The notes below the pieces were generated by a model. That model was not told the origin of the DNA. It saw nothing but the letters and a program-made list of their open reading frames with translations, and did not search any database. The position numbers and the translations under genes were made by a program. Shown piece after piece: positions 42,109 through 52,448 of a stretch of 64,000 nt of DNA. Positions within the stretch are counted from its first letter, which is position 1, and the number at the start of each line of letters is the position of its first letter. Source of the stretch: an uncultured bacterium (GTDB lineage Bacteria; Hydrothermota; Tepidihabitantia; Tepidihabitantales; DTDR01). Where the stretch lies: assembly GCA_938040315.1 (NCBI GenBank), contig CALHQW010000008.1, forward strand, positions 1-64,000. The letters run 5' to 3'.

Positions 42109-43688
42109 TTTTCTAACAATTCTTTTAAGAAAGAAAATTCTTTTAGAATTGCTGGATGGCGAAGTTTTTTTAAGGCTTTTGCCTCAATTTGTCTTACTCG
42201 CTCACGGGTTATATTAAAGATTTGCCCAACTTCTTCTAAAGTTCTTTGAATACCGTCGCCAATTCCGAACCGGAGTTTTAAGATTTTTTCTTCTCTTTTT
42301 GATAAATAAATTTGTAATACTTTTTCTAACTTTTCATTTAACAAAGAAATCCCAGCCTTTCTTGCGGGAGAGGTTGTTTTTTCGTCAGCCATAAAGTCGC
42401 CAATAAAACCAGATTCTTCATCATCTATAGGTTTATCTAAAGAGACACCGTGTTGGATAATTTTTAGATACCTTTCAATTTTTTCTTTACTAATTCCTAA
42501 TCGTTGAGCGATCTCACTAATTGTTGGTTCTCGGCCAAAATTTTGTAAAAACTTTTGACGCGCATGAGTAATTTTATTAATTGCATCCTGGATATGGGAT
42601 GGTATTCTTACTGTTCTTGACTGTTCGGCAAGTGCTCTTGTAATTGCCTGTTTAATCCACCAAGTAGCATAAGTGGAGAATTTATAGCCCTTTTTATAAT
42701 TAAATTTTTCTACCGCTTTTATTAATCCGACATTTCCTTCTTCTACTAAATCTGAGAATTCTAACCCACGATTAGCATATTTTTTAGCAATTGAAACAAC
42801 TAAACGCACATTACCGTTTATCATTTTATCTCTTGCGGATAAAATTTTATTTTTGTATCTTTCTATATTTCTCCAGGTTTCTTCAACCTTTTCGTAATTT
42901 TGACCAAAAAAATTTTCATACTCCTTTAACTTTTCTTTTAAATTTTTAATTTCATTTTTATCTTTTGTGTTTTTTATCTGGTTAAAGATTTTTTGGGCTT
43001 CAACCATTTTACGATGAAATTCCTCGACAAATTCATTAATAACAGAATGTTGCAAACTTAAATTTTGGATTCTTCGTAAAATACTTTTCTTTTTTTCTTC
43101 AATTTTCTTTAAAACCACTGGTGTCGGTTTTTTCCCCAAGAGTTCTTTAAGGGTAGTAATTAATTTTTTTAAAGCCTTTGTACGACGAATAAAAAGGTAT
43201 CTTTTGTGAGACATTGCCCAACGGTTAATTAGATATTCATATTCTACTCGGACAATTTGGTCTAAATCTTTTTCTCCTCTTTCTACCGACTCACAAAGTT
43301 CGATTAATTTTTCAATAAGTGGCACGCTATTAAAAAGGCAAGAAGTAATCTCCCGATAACCTTCTTCCATTATTTTAGAGTATCTTATTTCTTCTTCTTT
43401 AGTTAAAAGGGGTAATTTTGCTAAATCACGAAAATAAAATTTGGTAGCACTCTCAAAAGGTTCTATCGGAACTTTTTTTGGCTTTCTTGAGACAACTTCT
43501 AATGGTTCTTCTTCGACAACTTCAATTCCCATTTTATTGAGGTTTAATAAAATTTCTTCTACATCTTCAGCAGTATTTAATTCTTCAGGTAGAAGCAAAT
43601 TTAATTGGTCGTAAGTTAATTTTTTATTTTTATATTTTAAAATCTCATTATAAAATTTTTCTAAGATAGCTTTTTTATTGTTACTCAT
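42105..43688 (-). CDS. rpoD: RNA polymerase primary sigma factor RpoD
   Basis: [64 protein letters not shown]. Confidence 0.96.
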
Positions 43689-45340
43689 TTTCCTCCTTTA
43701 ATTAAATTTTTTTTGATTTCAACAATTTTTCTTAAAATATTCTCGTTGCTTTCTCCCGAAGTTAGTTTATTGTAAAGATATTCATAAAAATATTTATCTA
43801 ATAACCGTTTAAAATCTTTTTCTTTTATATTACTGATTAATACTTCTGATGAAAAAGATAAAGAAGCGCATTTCTTTTTGAATTCTTCATTTTTAATTTC
43901 TTCTAATATTAGCCCAGTATTTATTTTTTCTTTATCTTTAAAATCTTCAATTATTTTTATTAACTCCTTTATTTCTTCAGGAAAGATTTCTAATGGATAT
44001 TCTTGAATAAGTGAAGAATATTTGGGATAAACTAATAATATATTAATTATTTGGTCTTCTAACTTTTTTATTTCTACATTAAAAACAGAAAAACTTTTTT
44101 CTTTAAAGATATTTAACACTTGTTCTTTCTTAATATGAAAAATTTCACTTATTTTATTTAAATATAGTTCTTTTAGGGTTGAATCGCAAGTAAAATTTAT
44201 AATTTCTCCAAGTTTTTTTAAAATATTCCTTTTTTCAGAAATTGTTTTGGGATGAGAAATTTTTAGGTAAAAATCAATAAAATCGTAGGGAAAGCAGATA
44301 ATTTTTTTAAGTTCCTTTACCCCTTTTTCCTTTACATATTTATCAGGATCGTAATTATCTGGGAGAAAAGCAATCAAAGGATTTATCCCCACTTTTAAGG
44401 CAATTTCCGCAGCTCTTTTTGTTGCTTCTCGGCCGGCATTATCGCCATCAAATAAAATTATTATTTCTTCACTATATTTTTTTAATAACCTTGCTTGGTC
44501 AATCGTAAAACCAGTGCCTAAAGGTGCCACTAAATTTTTAATTCCTTTATCAAAGAGTGAAAGTAAATCAAAATATCCTTCTACTAATATAGGTTTATTT
44601 TCTGCTAAAAAATTACGTGTTTGATAAAGACCATAGAGATTTTCTCCTTTTTTAAAAATTGCTGTTTCTGGTGAATTAAGATACTTGGGTTCTATTTTTT
44701 CATCTAATACTCTTCCTCCAAAACCGATAACCTTTCCGCGAGAGTTAAAAATTGGAAAAATAATACGATTAAAAAACCATTCATGGATATCCTTTTCTTT
44801 TTTATAAGCCAAACCGCTTTTAATTAATAACTCTTCTGAAAAACCTCTTTTATAAAGAGTTTTAATTAAAAGATTTCCAACAGGAGCATAGCCTAATTGG
44901 AATTCTTTTATTGTTGTTAACGATAGTTTTCTCTCTTTAATTAAATAATTTAAAGCTTGCGGATAAATAAAAAGTTGTTCTTGATAAAACTTGCTTGCCA
45001 ATTTAATAACTTCGTAAATTTCTTTATTTTTTTTCTCTTCTTTTTCATCTGCTAAACTTATTTCTATTCCCTCTCTCTCTGCTAAAGATTTTACTGCCTC
45101 AAGAAATCCAATTTTTTCATATTTCATTATAAAATGAATGACGTTACCACTCTCTTTACAACCAAAACAATGAAATAGTTGTTGCGACGGATTGACATAA
45201 AAAGAGGGTTTAGTATCATGATGAAAAGGGCATAAGGCTCGATAATAATTGCCAACTTTTTTTAAAGGTAGATAGGAATTAATTAATTCTACAATATCAC
45301 AATTTTCTAAAATTTTTTCAATAATTTCCCTTTTAATCAT
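43685..45340 (-). CDS. dnaG: DNA primase
   Basis: [46 protein letters not shown]. Confidence 0.96.
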
Positions 45341-47357
45341 TTTCTTTTTTTAATAATTTTACCTCCTCTTTTGGAACAGTGATTAAAAATTTTTGGGTCA
45401 AAATCTTTAAAAAATTATTTTTAATTTCTATAATTTTACCGACTCTTTTTAATTTTTCAATATATACTTCATCCCCAATTTTTAAGTTCTTTTCTTCATT
45501 AAAAGAGTAGAGAAGATTTTTTTCTTTTTGAATTTCTGATAAATTAGTCTCAATAAATTTTTTAGCTTCGCTTATTGCTCCCTTTTTTTGTGCTTTAATT
45601 GTTTTTATAAAATTCTCCAATTCTTTTCGAGCGTTTAAAAAGAAGTTTTCTTTTTCTTTTAGAAATTCTTTTTTGTAGTTTTTTAAGATTATTTGTAGTT
45701 CTTTGTTTTTTTCTTCATAATTTTTTATTAATTTTTCTAATTTTTCCTCTTTCTCCTTTAATTCTTCAATTTTCTTTTGATATTTTTTTATTTCTTTTTC
45801 CCATTCATTTAATTTTGTTTTTATGGTAAAAAAATCAGTTTTTAAATAGTAATGGGCTCTTTCAATAATTGATTTTTCTAAACCGATTGTTTGAGCAATT
45901 TCTAAAGCACTTGATTCGCCAGGGATGCCAATAATCAATCGATATGTGGGTTTTTCTTTATATTCCATAGAAGCATTTAAAATTTTTGATGAGTTATGGG
46001 CAAAAATTTTTAAACGAGGCAAATGAGTAGTAGCGAAGACGAATGAGTTCTTTTTAGATAATTCTTCTAAAATAGCGATAGCCAAAGCCTCGCCCTCTTC
46101 CGGAGAAGTATCTCTACCTAATTCATCTAATAAAATTAATGAATGAGCATCTGCCTTTTCGAGGAATTCTTTTATCTTTTTTATATGAGCGTGAAAAGAA
46201 GAAAGCCCTTTTTCCAAAGATTGTTCGTCTCCGATATCAGCAAAAATTTTTTTGAAAAAAGGAATTTTACTATTTATTCCTACTGGAGGATATATTCCTG
46301 ATTGGGCGAGTAAAGAAATTATTCCGATTGTTTTCAGAACAACTGTTTTGCCACCAGCATTTGGTCCAGAGATTAGAAGAATTCTTATTTTTTGGGGTAA
46401 TTGAAAGGAAAGGGGGATTACCTCTTCTTTTATTTTCAACAAAAGAGGATGGCGAGCAAAGTTTATTTGAAATTCATTTTTTTCAGAAAATTCAATTTTC
46501 TGGCAATGATAATCTTCTACAAATTTTGCTTTAGCATTTAAAGCATCTAAATAAGCGATTGTTTCGCAAGTTTTATTTATATCAGAGTATCTTTTAATTA
46601 TTTCTTCCGTTAGTTCTTTTAAAATTCTTTTCTTTTCTTCGGCTAATTGGTGATTAATTTTTATAAATAAATTGTTGTCTTCAACAATTTCTAAGGGTTC
46701 ACAAAAAGCAGTTTTTTTTGTTTCTGAATAATCATGAACAATTCCAGGAAATTTACTAATTAGATTGGTTTTAATTGGTAATACATATCTTTCTCCGCAC
46801 AAAGTGTAATTATCAATTGTTAAAAAATCTTTTTTTTCTTTAATTATTTTTTTTAATTTATTAATAATTTTTTCTCTTAACTCTTTTATTTCCGAAAGAA
46901 TTTTTAAAAGTTGTGGAAAGGCTTCATATTTAATTTCGCCGTCTTCTTCAATTTTATCTTCAATTAAGGATATCAATTGTTGATAATTATTAAGATTATT
47001 TAAATAAAATGCGAAAGAGGAAGGAAGATTTTTTAAAGGGAAAAAAATTTTGAGTTTTTCTACATTTTTTAAAAAGTTTTTTATTAAAATTAAAATTTTC
47101 CCATTAAAATAATAGTTCTTTTTTAGTTCTTCCTTTAAAAACTCTGCTAAATTAAAAAAATTTTTGTAGGATGGTTTTTCTTTTAAAGAAAGATAATATT
47201 CCAAATGGCTGAATTCCTTTCTAATTGTTTCTATTTTAGAAAAAGGTAAAGAGTTTAAAATTAATTCCTTTCCTAAAGGAGTTTCACAATAATTAGCAAT
47301 TAAACTAAGTACTTTGTGATATTCTAAATTTAGTAAAGTATCTTTATCGCAAACCAC
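45333..47357 (-). CDS. mutS2: MutS2 family protein
   Basis: LLISGPNAGGKTVVLKTIG; LDELGRDTSPEEGEALAIAILEEL; no clear C-terminal Smr domain seen. Confidence 0.9.
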   Translation of the reverse strand: MVCDKDTLLNLEYHKVLSLIANYCETPLGKELILNSLPFSKIETIRKEFSHLEYYLSLKEKPSYKNFFNLAEFLKEELKKNYYFNGKILILIKNFLKNVEKLKIFFPLKNLPSSFAFYLNNLNNYQQLISLIEDKIEEDGEIKYEAFPQLLKILSEIKELREKIINKLKKIIKEKKDFLTIDNYTLCGERYVLPIKTNLISKFPGIVHDYSETKKTAFCEPLEIVEDNNLFIKINHQLAEEKKRILKELTEEIIKRYSDINKTCETIAYLDALNAKAKFVEDYHCQKIEFSEKNEFQINFARHPLLLKIKEEVIPLSFQLPQKIRILLISGPNAGGKTVVLKTIGIISLLAQSGIYPPVGINSKIPFFKKIFADIGDEQSLEKGLSSFHAHIKKIKEFLEKADAHSLILLDELGRDTSPEEGEALAIAILEELSKKNSFVFATTHLPRLKIFAHNSSKILNASMEYKEKPTYRLIIGIPGESSALEIAQTIGLEKSIIERAHYYLKTDFFTIKTKLNEWEKEIKKYQKKIEELKEKEEKLEKLIKNYEEKNKELQIILKNYKKEFLKEKENFFLNARKELENFIKTIKAQKKGAISEAKKFIETNLSEIQKEKNLLYSFNEEKNLKIGDEVYIEKLKRVGKIIEIKNNFLKILTQKFLITVPKEEVKLLKKEND

Positions 47358-47583: not shown

Positions 47584-48333
47584 TTAAATATTATTAAATT
47601 CATATAAAATTAAACTAATTGCTACAATTCCTGCTGTTTCACTTCTTAATCTTCTTTTTCCTAAGGTAAAAAGATTTGCCCCTTTTTCTTCAGCTATTTT
47701 TATTTCTTTTAGTGTAAAACCACCCTCTGGGCCGATTATTAATAAAATATTTTTAATATTATTTTTTTTATTTTTATTAATAATGTTAGCTAATTTAGTA
47801 TCGCTATTTTCATAGGCTAAGAGAACTAAATCATAAGAAAAAAAGTTATTAACTAATTCTTCAAAAGTTATTGGTTTATAAATTTCTGGCAATATAGTAC
47901 CAGCAGATGTTTTTAAAGAAGCAATAGAAATTTTTTTTAATCTTTTCAATTTATTTTCATTTAGCTTAACTACCGTATTTTGAAAATACACAGGAATAAA
48001 ACCACCGATTCCTAATTCCGTTGCTTTGGCTAATATTATTTCTGTGTTTTCACCTTTTAATGGTGAGCTGGCCAAGGTAATTTTAATAGTAGGTTCCCTT
48101 GGTAAAAATTTTTTATTTAAGACTTCTCCGATTAGGTTCTTCTTTTCTATTTTTTTTATTAGAACTTCATATTCATAACCCAAACCGTTAGTTAATTTTA
48201 TTTTATCACCAATTTTATGTCTCATTACTTTTAAAATATGCTTTGCTTCTTCATTCTTTATTATTATTTTCTCGCCGATTTCTAATTTTTTAGGATAGTA
48301 ATAAATTTCACAGGATAAGAAATCTCTATTCAT
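47584..48333 (-). CDS. rsmE: 16S rRNA m3U1498 methyltransferase RsmE
   Basis: LRHK-like [40 protein letters not shown]. Confidence 0.93.
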
Positions 48334-49481
48334 TTTGTTTCTTCTATAGGATATCTCGGTGGTGGAGGGGGTTCAGAAGATAGTTTTCTTAATTCTTCTA
48401 ATAATCTTTTTTCTTCTTCAGAAAGAGAATGGGGGAAAAAAATTTTAATTTTTACTAATAAATCACCGCAAGAGTTGTATCTTCTTAATCCTAATTCTTT
48501 AATTCGGAGTATTTGTCCATCTTGGATGCCAGGATTAATTTTAATTTTTTTATTACCCTTTAGAGTGGGAACTTCGATTTCACCGCCAATTAAAGCAGTA
48601 GTATAATGAATGGGAACCTCCACCATTAAATCAAGTCCTTTTCTTAAAAAGAGAGGATGAGGAATTTCTTCAAATTCAATAATTACATCTCCCTTTCCAT
48701 CTTCACCATAATGACCTTCGCCTTTTAAAATTAGATAATTATTTTCAATAATTTCTTTTGGAATTTTAATTTTAAATATTTTTTTCTTTTTAATTCGACC
48801 GCTTCCTCCACAGGCTTTGCAAGATTCCTTTACAATCTTTCCAGTTCCGCCACAATAATGACAAGTAGCAATTTTGATTATTTGACTAAAGGCACTTCTT
48901 TGAATTTGTTGGATTTCTCCTTTACCTTTGCAAACCGGACAAATAGTTTTTCCTTTGCCACCGATTCCTTGACAATCAGTGCATTTTTCATAACGTTCTA
49001 ATTCAAAAGTTTTTTCTTTACCATCAGCAATATCTTCTAATGTTAATTTCATTTTTACTCTTATATTACCACCAACAACCTTCCTTTTTCTTTCTCTAGT
49101 TGGTCTTGTCCAAATATCAAATATTGATTCTTCTTCAAAAAATCTTTTAAGAAATTCAAAAGGATCAAAACTTTCACCAAAGATATCTCGCCATTCGTCG
49201 GTATGGGTAAAATGTTTCCAAGTGAAACCGTCAGGGCCAAATTTTTGAGAGACCCCTTCGTGACCATAAAGATCGTATAATCTTCTTTTTTCATCGTCTA
49301 CTAAAACTTCATAAGCTTCAGAAATTTCTTTAAATTTCTCTTCGGCTTCTTTTCGATTATTGGGGTTCATATCTGGGTGATATTTTTTTGCTAAACGACG
49401 ATAAGCCTGTTTAATTTCTTCTTTAGTGGCATTTCGAGAAACGCCTAAAATTTCATAATAATCTTTTTTTGTCTTTTCCAT
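48330..49481 (-). CDS. dnaJ: Chaperone DnaJ
   Basis: J-domain with HPD; four CxxCxGxG repeats; C-terminal domains. Confidence 0.96.
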
Positions 49482-49538: not shown

Positions 49539-49991
49539 TTAACTAACTTTTACTCTTTTTGCTTTTAGTAACGGTTGGGCAGCTTCTTCTAACTCTTTTA
49601 TCGTTAAGTTAATTTTTTTTGGGTCTTTTTTAATCAGTGCTTTTTTTAGTTTTTCTAGTTTACCTTCAATTTGTTTTCTTTCCTTAACACTCAAGGAGTC
49701 GCCATATTTTTTAAGTTTATTTTGGATAGTAAAATATTTAATCCGACCTCGCATCAACGGTTTTTTAAGTGCTTTTAGAGCCCCAATCAGCTCTTTGCTT
49801 CCGAATCTCCTTAAAATCCTTTCTTCGATTTGTCTTACTCTTTCTCTGGTGATATTGAGTTTATTGCCAATCGCTTGGAGAGTATGAGGAATTTCACCGC
49901 CCAAACCGTATCGTAACCGAATCACTTCTTCTTCTCTTTTTGTTAATGATTTTAGTATTTTTTCAAGTTTTCCATCTAAATTACTTACCAT
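49539..49991 (-). CDS. Sigma-70 region 4 domain fused to DnaK C-terminal lid-like helical bundle
   Basis: N-terminal LTKREEEVIRLRYGLGG...[18 protein letters not shown] (region 4.2); C-terminal FTIQNKLKKYGDSLSVKERKQIEGKLEKLKKALIKKDPKKINLTIKELEEAAQPL aligns ungapped with the DnaK lid encoded next door. Confidence 0.85.
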   Translation of the reverse strand: MVSNLDGKLEKILKSLTKREEEVIRLRYGLGGEIPHTLQAIGNKLNITRERVRQIEERILRRFGSKELIGALKALKKPLMRGRIKYFTIQNKLKKYGDSLSVKERKQIEGKLEKLKKALIKKDPKKINLTIKELEEAAQPLLKAKRVKVS

Positions 49992-50003
49992 ACTTTCTCC
50001 TTT

Positions 50004-51866
50004 TTAAGATTTATTATCTTCATCATAAACTTCGTAATCTTTTTTATCTTTTTCTTCTTTTTGAGTTTGGGTTTCTCGGTACATCGTTTCTGCTAAACGA
50101 TGGCTTGCCCTTTGTAACTCATCAATTGCTTTTTCTATTTCTTCTTTATTATCTCCTTTCATTACTTCTTTTAACCGATTTAATTTTTCTTCTATTTCTC
50201 TTCGATCATTCTCAGAAATTTTATTCCCAAACTCTTTTAAATTTTTTTCAATGGTATAAGCTAAAGTATCAGCTTTGTTTCTTGTTTCTACTAACTCCCG
50301 TTTACGTCGGTCTTCTTCTCGATACATTTCAGCTTCTTTAATCATTCTTTCAATTTCTTCCTTTGTTAAACCCGAAGAAGGAATAATTCTCATACTTTGT
50401 TCTTTTTTAGTGGCTAAATCCCTTGCAGTCACATGTAAAATTCCATCGGCATCGATATCAAAAATAACTTCAATCTGAGGGACACCTCGTGGAGCTGGTG
50501 GAATGCCATGAAGTTCAAATTTTCCTAAACTTTTATTATCGGCAGCCATTGGTCTTTCACCTTGTAAAACATGAATTGTGACAGCTGTTTGATTGTCTTC
50601 TGCAGTAGTAAAAATTTGGCTTTTTCTTACGGGGATAGTAGTATTTCTTTCAATAATTTTAGTAAATACACCGCCAAGAGTTTCAATACCTAAAGAAAGA
50701 GGAGTAACATCTAAAAGAACAATATCTTTAATTTCACCGGCTAGTACCGCTCCTTGAATAGCAGCACCTATCGCTACCACTTCATCAGGGTTAATTCCCT
50801 TATGAGGTTCTTTGCCAAAAAAATCCTTTACTACTTCTTGAACTCTAGGCATTCTAGTTTGACCGCCCACTAAAATTACTTCGTCAATATCTTCTGGTTG
50901 CAATTTGGCATCGGCCAAACAATTTTTAACTGGTTCTAAAGTTTTTTGAATTAAATCTTCCACCATCGCTTCTAAACGGGCACGGGTTAATTTTAATTCT
51001 AAATGTATAGGTCCTCTTTCGGGATCAGAATAAATAAAAGGTAAACTTATTAAAGTTTCATATTTGGTAGAAAGTTCTCGTTTTGCTTTTTCCGCAGCCT
51101 CTCTAATCCTTTGTAAAGCAGTTCGATCCTTAGAGAGATCTACTTTAAATTCTCTTTTTGCTTCTTCTAAAATCCATTGAACAATTCTCGCGTCAAAATC
51201 GTCTCCGCCTAAATGAGTATTTCCGTTGGTAGCAATTACTTCAAAGACCCCTTCGCCGATTTCTAAAATAGAAATATCAAAAGTACCGCCCCCTAAATCA
51301 TAAACAGCAATTTTTTCATTCTTTTTCTTATCTAAACCGTAAGCAAGCGAAGCAGCGGTTGGTTCATTAATAATTCTTAATACTTCTAAACCAGCAATCT
51401 TACCAGCATCTTTGGTAGCCTGTCTTTGGGCATCATTAAAATAAGCGGGCACAGTGATGACTGCTTTATCAATTTTTTCGCCAAGATATTGTTCAGCAGC
51501 ATTTTTTAAATATTCTAATATAAATGCGGAAATTTGGGGTGGTGAATATCTTTTTCCTTCTACCTCTACCCACGCGTCTCCATTATCCGCCGGAACTACT
51601 TTATAAGGAACCAATTTTATCTCTTCAGTAACTTCCGAATATTTTCTTCCCATAAAGCGTTTAATAGAATAGATTGTTTTATCAGGATTTATTATTGCCT
51701 GTCTTTTTGCAAGGGTTCCAACTAATCTTTCTTTCCCAAAGGCAACTACTGAAGGAGTAGTTCGTTCTCCTTCAGGATTAGGAATAACTACTGCTTGTCC
51801 TTTTTCCATTACCGCTACCACAGAAAAGGTTGTTCCTAAATCTATCCCAATTACTCTTTTTCCCAT
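50004..51866 (-). CDS. dnaK: Chaperone DnaK
   Basis: [53 protein letters not shown]. Confidence 0.97.
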
Positions 51867-51901: not shown

Positions 51902-52369
51902 TTAACCTTCCGAAGGATTTTGTTTTTCTTTACTCACAATTACCTGGGCAGGTTTTAAAACATAATCTCTGTAAAGATAGCCTTTACCTACTTCTTCTAC
52001 TATTTTATCGGGCGGAACTTTGTCTGTTTCTACATATCCTACTGCCTCTGCATATTTTGGATCAAAATCTTTTCCCAATAAAGAATATTCTTTTAAACCG
52101 TATTTTTCCAAAATACTTTTTAATTGATTATAGATTATTTCCAATCCTTTTTTTAAACTTTGAAAATTATTATCTAATTGCGAATGAAACAATGCTCGAT
52201 TAAAATTTTCTAAAACCGGAATGATATCAATAAAAAATTCCTTTAAAATTAATTCCTTTGCAATTAACACTTCTTTCTCCTTTCTTTTTCGAAAGTTATC
52301 AAATTCGGCTAATAAACGTAAATAACTATCTTTTAATAAAGTTACTGGTCCTATTTTTTTCTTCTCCAT
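51902..52369 (-). CDS. grpE: GrpE nucleotide exchange factor
   Basis: LAEFDNFRKRKEKE; DIIPVLENFNRAL; KGYLYRDYVLKPAQVIVS; ATG 52369 preferred over TTG 52405. Confidence 0.9.
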   Translation of the reverse strand: MEKKKIGPVTLLKDSYLRLLAEFDNFRKRKEKEVLIAKELILKEFFIDIIPVLENFNRALFHSQLDNNFQSLKKGLEIIYNQLKSILEKYGLKEYSLLGKDFDPKYAEAVGYVETDKVPPDKIVEEVGKGYLYRDYVLKPAQVIVSKEKQNPSEG

Positions 52370-52395
52370 CTTGACTTTTATTATTTTAATATTAT

Positions 52396-52424
52396 AATAT
52401 ACCAAAAAATTTATGATTTGTCAA
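52396..52424 (-). promoter_or_regulatory. Promoter TTGACA-N17-TATATT for grpE operon
   Basis: -35 52424-52419, -10 52401-52396 on minus strand. Confidence 0.65.
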
Positions 52425-52448
52425 CAAATAAAGATTTAAGGAGGAGAC

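Follow-up and report, generated by a model that had tools for sequence, protein, structure and literature searches.

What might a protein do that begins as a primary sigma factor ends, ends nearly as an Hsp70 ends, and is encoded in the middle of a chaperone operon? The question is raised by a gene, here called X, in the first 64,000 nucleotides (nt) of contig CALHQW010000008.1 (assembly GCA_938040315.1), from an uncultured bacterium of the phylum Hydrothermota; this whole stretch is referred to below as the window. The bacterium belongs to candidate division WOR-3, a phylum that NCBI now lists as Caldifarciminota. X starts 12 nt downstream of dnaK in a cluster with the order grpE-dnaK-X-dnaJ-rsmE-mutS2-dnaG-rpoD. 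An initial annotation, made from the DNA alone, described it as sigma-70 region 4 fused to a DnaK lid-like domain, without sigma regions 2 and 3, and suggested that the lid senses DnaK, DnaJ, GrpE or unfolded protein. The architecture has stood up to analysis: all 150 amino acids (aa) are assigned to region 4 and the lid, and neither a nucleotide-binding domain nor the beta part of the Hsp70 substrate-binding domain (SBD-beta) is present. The parts of the gene are as follows.

49539..49991, minus strand: gene X, sigma region 4 plus DnaK lid-like bundle, 150 aa (open reading frame, ORF, with an ATG start; orthologues; ratio of nonsynonymous to synonymous substitution, dN/dS)
49997..50001, minus strand: Shine-Dalgarno sequence AGGAG of X, within the 12-nt gap between dnaK and X (identical in 3/3 species)
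49800..49988, minus strand: X residues 2-64, sigma-70 region 4, a helix-turn-helix (HTH) with the recognition helix TRERVRQIE (PF04545; NCBIfam RpoD models; 98-100% interspecies aa identity)
49734..49799, minus strand: X residues 65-86, counterpart of the RpoD C-terminal tail (BLAST to RpoD; modeled helix 65-99)
49560..49733, minus strand: X residues 87-144, DnaK lid helical bundle, from the end of helix B through C, D and E (lid profile, Foldseek, phmmer against the PDB)
49542..49559, minus strand: X residues 145-150, short basic C-terminal tail, predicted to be disordered (predicted local distance difference test, pLDDT, <50; sequence)

The first half of X is a region 4 of the RpoD type. Pfam Sigma70_r4 (PF04545) matches residues 13-62 with E=1.3e-14 (score 53.9 bits, cut-off 24.1), and the closest NCBIfam families are those of RpoD. 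Residues 2-79 align by BLAST with residues 447-525 of the genome's own RpoD at 44% identity, and the alignment ends with X79 opposite RpoD525, 2 residues short of the RpoD C-terminus (527). The recognition segment TRERVRQIE is the same in both proteins at all nine residues; 23 of 38 RpoD-conserved positions are retained in X, and those that are lost all lie outside the recognition helix. X also keeps the counterparts of functional residues of sigma70 (R554, R562, R584, E585 and Q589). Judged by its sequence, this region 4 looks competent for -35 binding. Among the 50 PDB matches listed for the X model by Foldseek, nearly all are sigmaA region 4 or DnaK; sigmaA region 4 heads them, and several are chimeras of sigmaA region 4 with the beta-flap of RNA polymerase (RNAP).

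Regions 2 and 3 are absent, as proposed: Pfam finds no Sigma70_r2 match in X, and a search of the whole genome with PF04542 matches at rpoD and other loci only. X is therefore no sigma factor by itself. In the same genome, outside the window, sigma region 2 recurs in at least three more short ORFs, 174-214 aa long (G000 C17:63214-63417, C34:19362-19559 and C37:7766-7960), which are probably extracytoplasmic function (ECF)-type sigma factors, and both genus-mates have an additional alternative sigma factor of 266-275 aa.

The second half, residues 87-144, is well supported as a genuine homologue of the DnaK lid. It aligns without gaps to residues 537-594 of the adjacent DnaK at 31-36% identity, and the two segments are mutual local BLAST matches in all three genomes that encode X. 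The full-length Pfam HSP70 model places X residues 88-143 against profile positions 540-595 of 599, at 11.4 bits and E=0.09, which is under its cut-off. A hidden Markov model (HMM) of the lid, built from 30 DnaKs with the genus of X left out, gives X a score of 31 bits, against 17.5 for the highest-scoring of 20,000 composition shuffles; only 2 of 20,000 stricter shuffles, with the hydrophobic/polar pattern and all Gly and Pro held fixed, reach the score of X. In the reciprocal direction, a search whose failure had been named beforehand as grounds for dropping the idea, an 11-row DnaK-lid profile without the genus was run against 61 whole genomes in six frames. It retrieved a single DnaK from each genome, followed by the three X proteins (E 7e-8 to 9e-8) and one partial match (4e-4), so that X is the sole strong Hsp70 lid outside an Hsp70 among these genomes. 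With phmmer, residues 63-150 find 10 weak matches in the PDB, 7 of which are DnaK substrate-binding domain chains, all in the same register.

The predicted fold agrees. An AlphaFold2 model computed from the three X sequences without templates (pLDDT 76) has helices at 65-99, 102-121, 124-137 and 139-142, arranged as lid helices B-E; the region-4 tail and lid helix B are predicted to form a single long helix (65-99). The C-terminal half modeled in isolation reaches a pLDDT of 82.5, and its top 39 Foldseek entries in the PDB are all DnaK, at a TM-score over the query of about 0.70-0.84 and a root-mean-square deviation (rmsd) of mostly 1.1-1.9 A; the associated E-values are all >0.001, as expected at such a small domain size.

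X is found in all three genomes of its genus, with orthologues of 149-150 aa at 89-93% identity. The expectation that the fusion is conserved in relatives thus holds for the genus and fails beyond it: in the other 144 of 147 phylum genomes searched, only RpoD or other sigma factors (N-terminal half) and DnaK (C-terminal half) match. A pattern-based scan over 84,980 species, which reaches close relatives only, saw no X outside the genus; none was found in viral contigs, or in plasmids at 80% coverage. The family contains no other genus in the genome collection. Elsewhere in the order, the same gene cluster occurs without X (L035, L036 and L041), and the insertion of X therefore falls within this genus or on its stem. 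The three species presumably live in hot springs, which is our reading of an isolate name and of the clade.

Within the genus, X is under strong purifying selection and is a functional gene. Its dN/dS between species is 0.03-0.07 over the whole gene and 0.012-0.019 over residues 1-64, where identity is 98-100%; dS is near saturation, so these ratios are rough. The lid (residues 87-144) is 78-85% identical between species and evolves faster than region 4. Overall conservation is about that of RpoD and GrpE and above that of DnaJ, RsmE and DnaG of the cluster.

RpoD of this genus has a 1-residue insertion in the first region-4 helix (LQIYLSKRE; window 42300-42350; L002, L033 and L034). Neither X nor the listed RpoDs from other genera of WOR-3 have the insertion (IYLSKRE), and region 4 of X shares 53-57% identity with other RpoDs of the order against 44% with its own. 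The rpoD copy from which region 4 of X came therefore probably predates the insertion. In a relative of the same class (L039; G031:C1:224500-230500, about 2450-2690; a single contig), an RpoD-type region 4 is found in a frame of 129 aa next to a stretch of N, and its rpoD is therefore interrupted by masked or missing sequence.

Although the bundle fold has been kept, the surfaces by which the Hsp70 lid is known to act have not. Core positions L93, G97, L115, I127 and L134 are common to X and the DnaKs. Over the segment, X has a net charge of +8/+9 against -1 to -4 for 38 DnaKs, which marks the bundle as repurposed; the genome's own DnaK is among the negative ones, so the difference is not an effect of genome composition. 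Residue 143 is Lys where DnaKs have an invariant Glu, and the counterparts of the DnaK latch are changed (R83 and F87, against D540 and H544 of E. coli). The residues by which mortalin contacts GrpE presumably lie upstream of the shared lid segment, where X has its region-4 tail. Docking of X to GrpE through that known contact is thus not supported. With the charge changed and both the latch and the GrpE-contact segment missing, simple mimicry of DnaK is not supported, and the earlier suggestion that the lid senses DnaK, DnaJ, GrpE or unfolded protein is not established. The contact in question is that of the mortalin-GrpEL1 structure, in which arginines early in helix B of the Hsp70 lid touch GrpE (PMC11685456).

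The features that surround X in its cluster are these.

50004..51866, minus strand: dnaK (Pfam HSP70, E=4.5e-264)
50085..50258, minus strand: lid segment of the adjacent dnaK (DnaK 537-594), paralogous counterpart of X 87-144 (reciprocal BLAST)
48330..49481, minus strand: dnaJ (Pfam DnaJ, DnaJ_C)
51902..52369, minus strand: grpE, start placed at MEKKK as in the other two species (Pfam GrpE; species comparison); the TTG start listed for it at 52405 is probably wrong
42114..42350, minus strand: region 4 of rpoD (RpoD 447-525), counterpart of X 2-79, at the far end of the cluster (search match)
52396..52424, minus strand: promoter-like site of the grpE-dnaK-X cluster, TTGACA-17-(TG)-TATATT (kept in 3/3 species; 11/12 match)

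Upstream of grpE, all three species have the near-consensus, RpoD-type promoter-like sequence TTGTTGACAAATC...TG-TATATT. The site matches the consensus at 11 of 12 positions, which is the joint best within 5.3 kb, and is a candidate target of X region 4. Its -35 motif, TTGTTGACAAATC, is rare, with exact matches at the grpE promoters and at one other, non-chaperone gene; it was not found upstream of hsp20 or groES. The site overlaps and faces a promoter-like RpoD-type site of a divergent adenosine-specific kinase gene on the plus strand (window 52370-52448). Farther along the cluster, MutS2 of this genus is a 674-aa protein without the C-terminal Smr domain (window 45333-47357, minus strand; also 674 aa in L033), and that of the order relative L036 (4614-6959) is 781 aa long and has the domain.

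HrcA (PF01628), for which the initial annotation had seen no gene in the operon, is absent from all 61 genomes, and no CIRCE (controlling inverted repeat of chaperone expression) operator occurs in the window with up to 3 mismatches. The genus has no HspR candidate, its sole MerR protein over the cut-off adjoining gpsA and not a chaperone locus; Pfam finds no MerR match in X. The idea that X substitutes for a lost HrcA is weakened, as relatives without X lack HrcA too.

A mechanism consistent with these observations can be outlined. X would have arisen inside the dnaK operon when copies of the rpoD 3' end (region 4) and of the 3' portion of dnaK (the lid bundle) were joined, and it would be co-expressed with GrpE, DnaK and DnaJ. 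Without being a sigma factor, it could bind -35 elements such as the TTGACA of the grpE promoter, the RNAP beta-flap, or both, and so compete with RpoD region 4 or modulate it. The basic lid bundle may be a fused accessory module for oligomerization, extra nucleic-acid contact or docking to acidic chaperones, and would tie the activity of X at the promoter or on RNAP to the status of the chaperones. The most likely net effect, as regards the direction of regulation, would be feedback on the dnaK operon with a logic like that of HspR and DnaK. HspR, a MerR-type repressor of actinobacteria, represses the dnaK operon in which it is itself encoded, with DnaK as corepressor (PMC2687793), and overexpression of GrpE derepresses the mycobacterial dnaK operon (PMC10803776). 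X is likewise a small protein of DNA-binding type within a dnaK operon, and chaperone-coupled autoregulation is plausible by this logic, if not by homology: HspR is a MerR HTH with a hydrophobic C-terminal tail that carries its dependence on DnaK, whereas X is sigma region 4 with a DnaK lid.

The reading that we favor, by analogy, is that X is a regulator encoded in the chaperone operon that binds the -35 element or the RNAP flap and feeds back on that operon. We hold it tentatively, as a real possibility that falls short of being probable. More doubtful is the fuller proposal that joined rpoD and dnaK 3' ends have yielded a new heat-shock regulator, in which a detached Hsp70 lid does the sensing or coupling for a promoter-binding controller of its own chaperone operon. 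Several points count against regulation of this kind. Chaperone genes show no enrichment of the 13-bp motif of the grpE promoter, no operator common to the hsp20 and groES upstream regions was seen, and, since HrcA is absent in relatives without X too, there is no obvious regulatory gap peculiar to this genus for X to fill. Region 4 of a primary sigma factor, once isolated, is usually a weak binder of -35 DNA. The faster evolution of the lid may mean that its contacts are loose, and the position in the operon could reflect the site of fusion and not function.

It may be instead that X is a general RNAP factor, with region 4 on the beta-flap as in phage T4 gp33 and the basic bundle on DNA or RNA near the exit channel, acting at many promoters or during elongation. 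An RpoD-type region 4 that is nearly unchanged between species, a Foldseek list led by sigmaA region 4 with its flap chimeras, a strongly basic bundle and chaperone promoters that share no operator would all fit. However, the location in a chaperone cluster and the origin of the lid would then be incidental, and a pure flap-binder has no need of the -35 recognition helix that X has fully kept; this account seems unlikely, if still a serious one. Rather less likely is a tether, in which DnaK or its cofactors are bound through the lid (for example lid to lid) and region 4 brings the DnaK system to RNAP or promoter-bound RpoD, so that transcription complexes are protected or remodeled at high temperature. 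The DnaK-like geometry of the lid, its shared core residues and the fixed position of X beside DnaK, DnaJ and GrpE genes in all three species speak for it. On the other side stand the reversed surface charge, the change of an invariant Glu to Lys at X143 and the GrpE-contact segment, presumably outside the shared segment; moreover, no partner of Hsp70 is known to bind just the lid bundle. That X is a region-4 decoy, similar to an anti-sigma factor, which sits on -35 elements or the flap and reduces RpoD transcription during stress while the lid stabilizes it as a nucleic-acid-binding appendage, is improbable: it would explain a protein that has the recognition helix of RpoD and, lacking regions 1-3, cannot initiate by itself, but a global inhibitor co-expressed constitutively with the chaperones from a strong RpoD-type promoter would come at a high cost. 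Very improbable indeed is a lid similarity due to mere coiled-coil convergence, or an X that is a decaying chimeric fragment. The identity of 31-36% is low and both halves are fragments of larger genes, yet chance and convergence are excluded by both shuffle controls, the reciprocal profile search and Foldseek of the isolated half, and contradicted by the gapless register in the PDB; a misannotated or decaying ORF is rejected because the gene keeps its unbroken length in all three species at a dN/dS of 0.03-0.07.

X lacks defining features of sigma factors, Hsp70s, HspR and HrcA, and it is therefore classed under none of them. It shares with primary sigma-70 factors a homologous region 4 (X 2-80) and an identical recognition helix, and differs in lacking regions 1.2, 2 and 3, in being only 150 aa long and in the extra bundle after region 4. 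With the Hsp70 SBD-alpha lid it shares a homologous, gapless segment with the same helix order, but it has neither the ATPase domain nor SBD-beta, its net charge is reversed and the latch counterparts are changed. The flap-binding coactivator gp33 of phage T4, region-4-like proteins that stand alone, such as YlxM, and the split sigma factor SigO/RsoA of B. subtilis are sigma-module proteins apart from a complete sigma factor; to our knowledge none carries an Hsp70 lid, and their families are not the best matches of X. The initial annotation knew of no described protein of this kind, and Pfam, NCBIfam and the open-access papers searched likewise describe no fusion of region 4 with a DnaK lid. 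The novelty of X is one of protein architecture, as both modules are textbook ones.

In X, an Hsp70 lid is joined to a transcription module and fixed inside a chaperone operon. If the protein couples chaperone state to promoter recognition, it would represent a new route of heat-shock control, in a lineage that has neither HrcA nor a recognizable HspR. If that is true, X would also show clearly how two housekeeping genes of a single cluster can give rise to a regulator.
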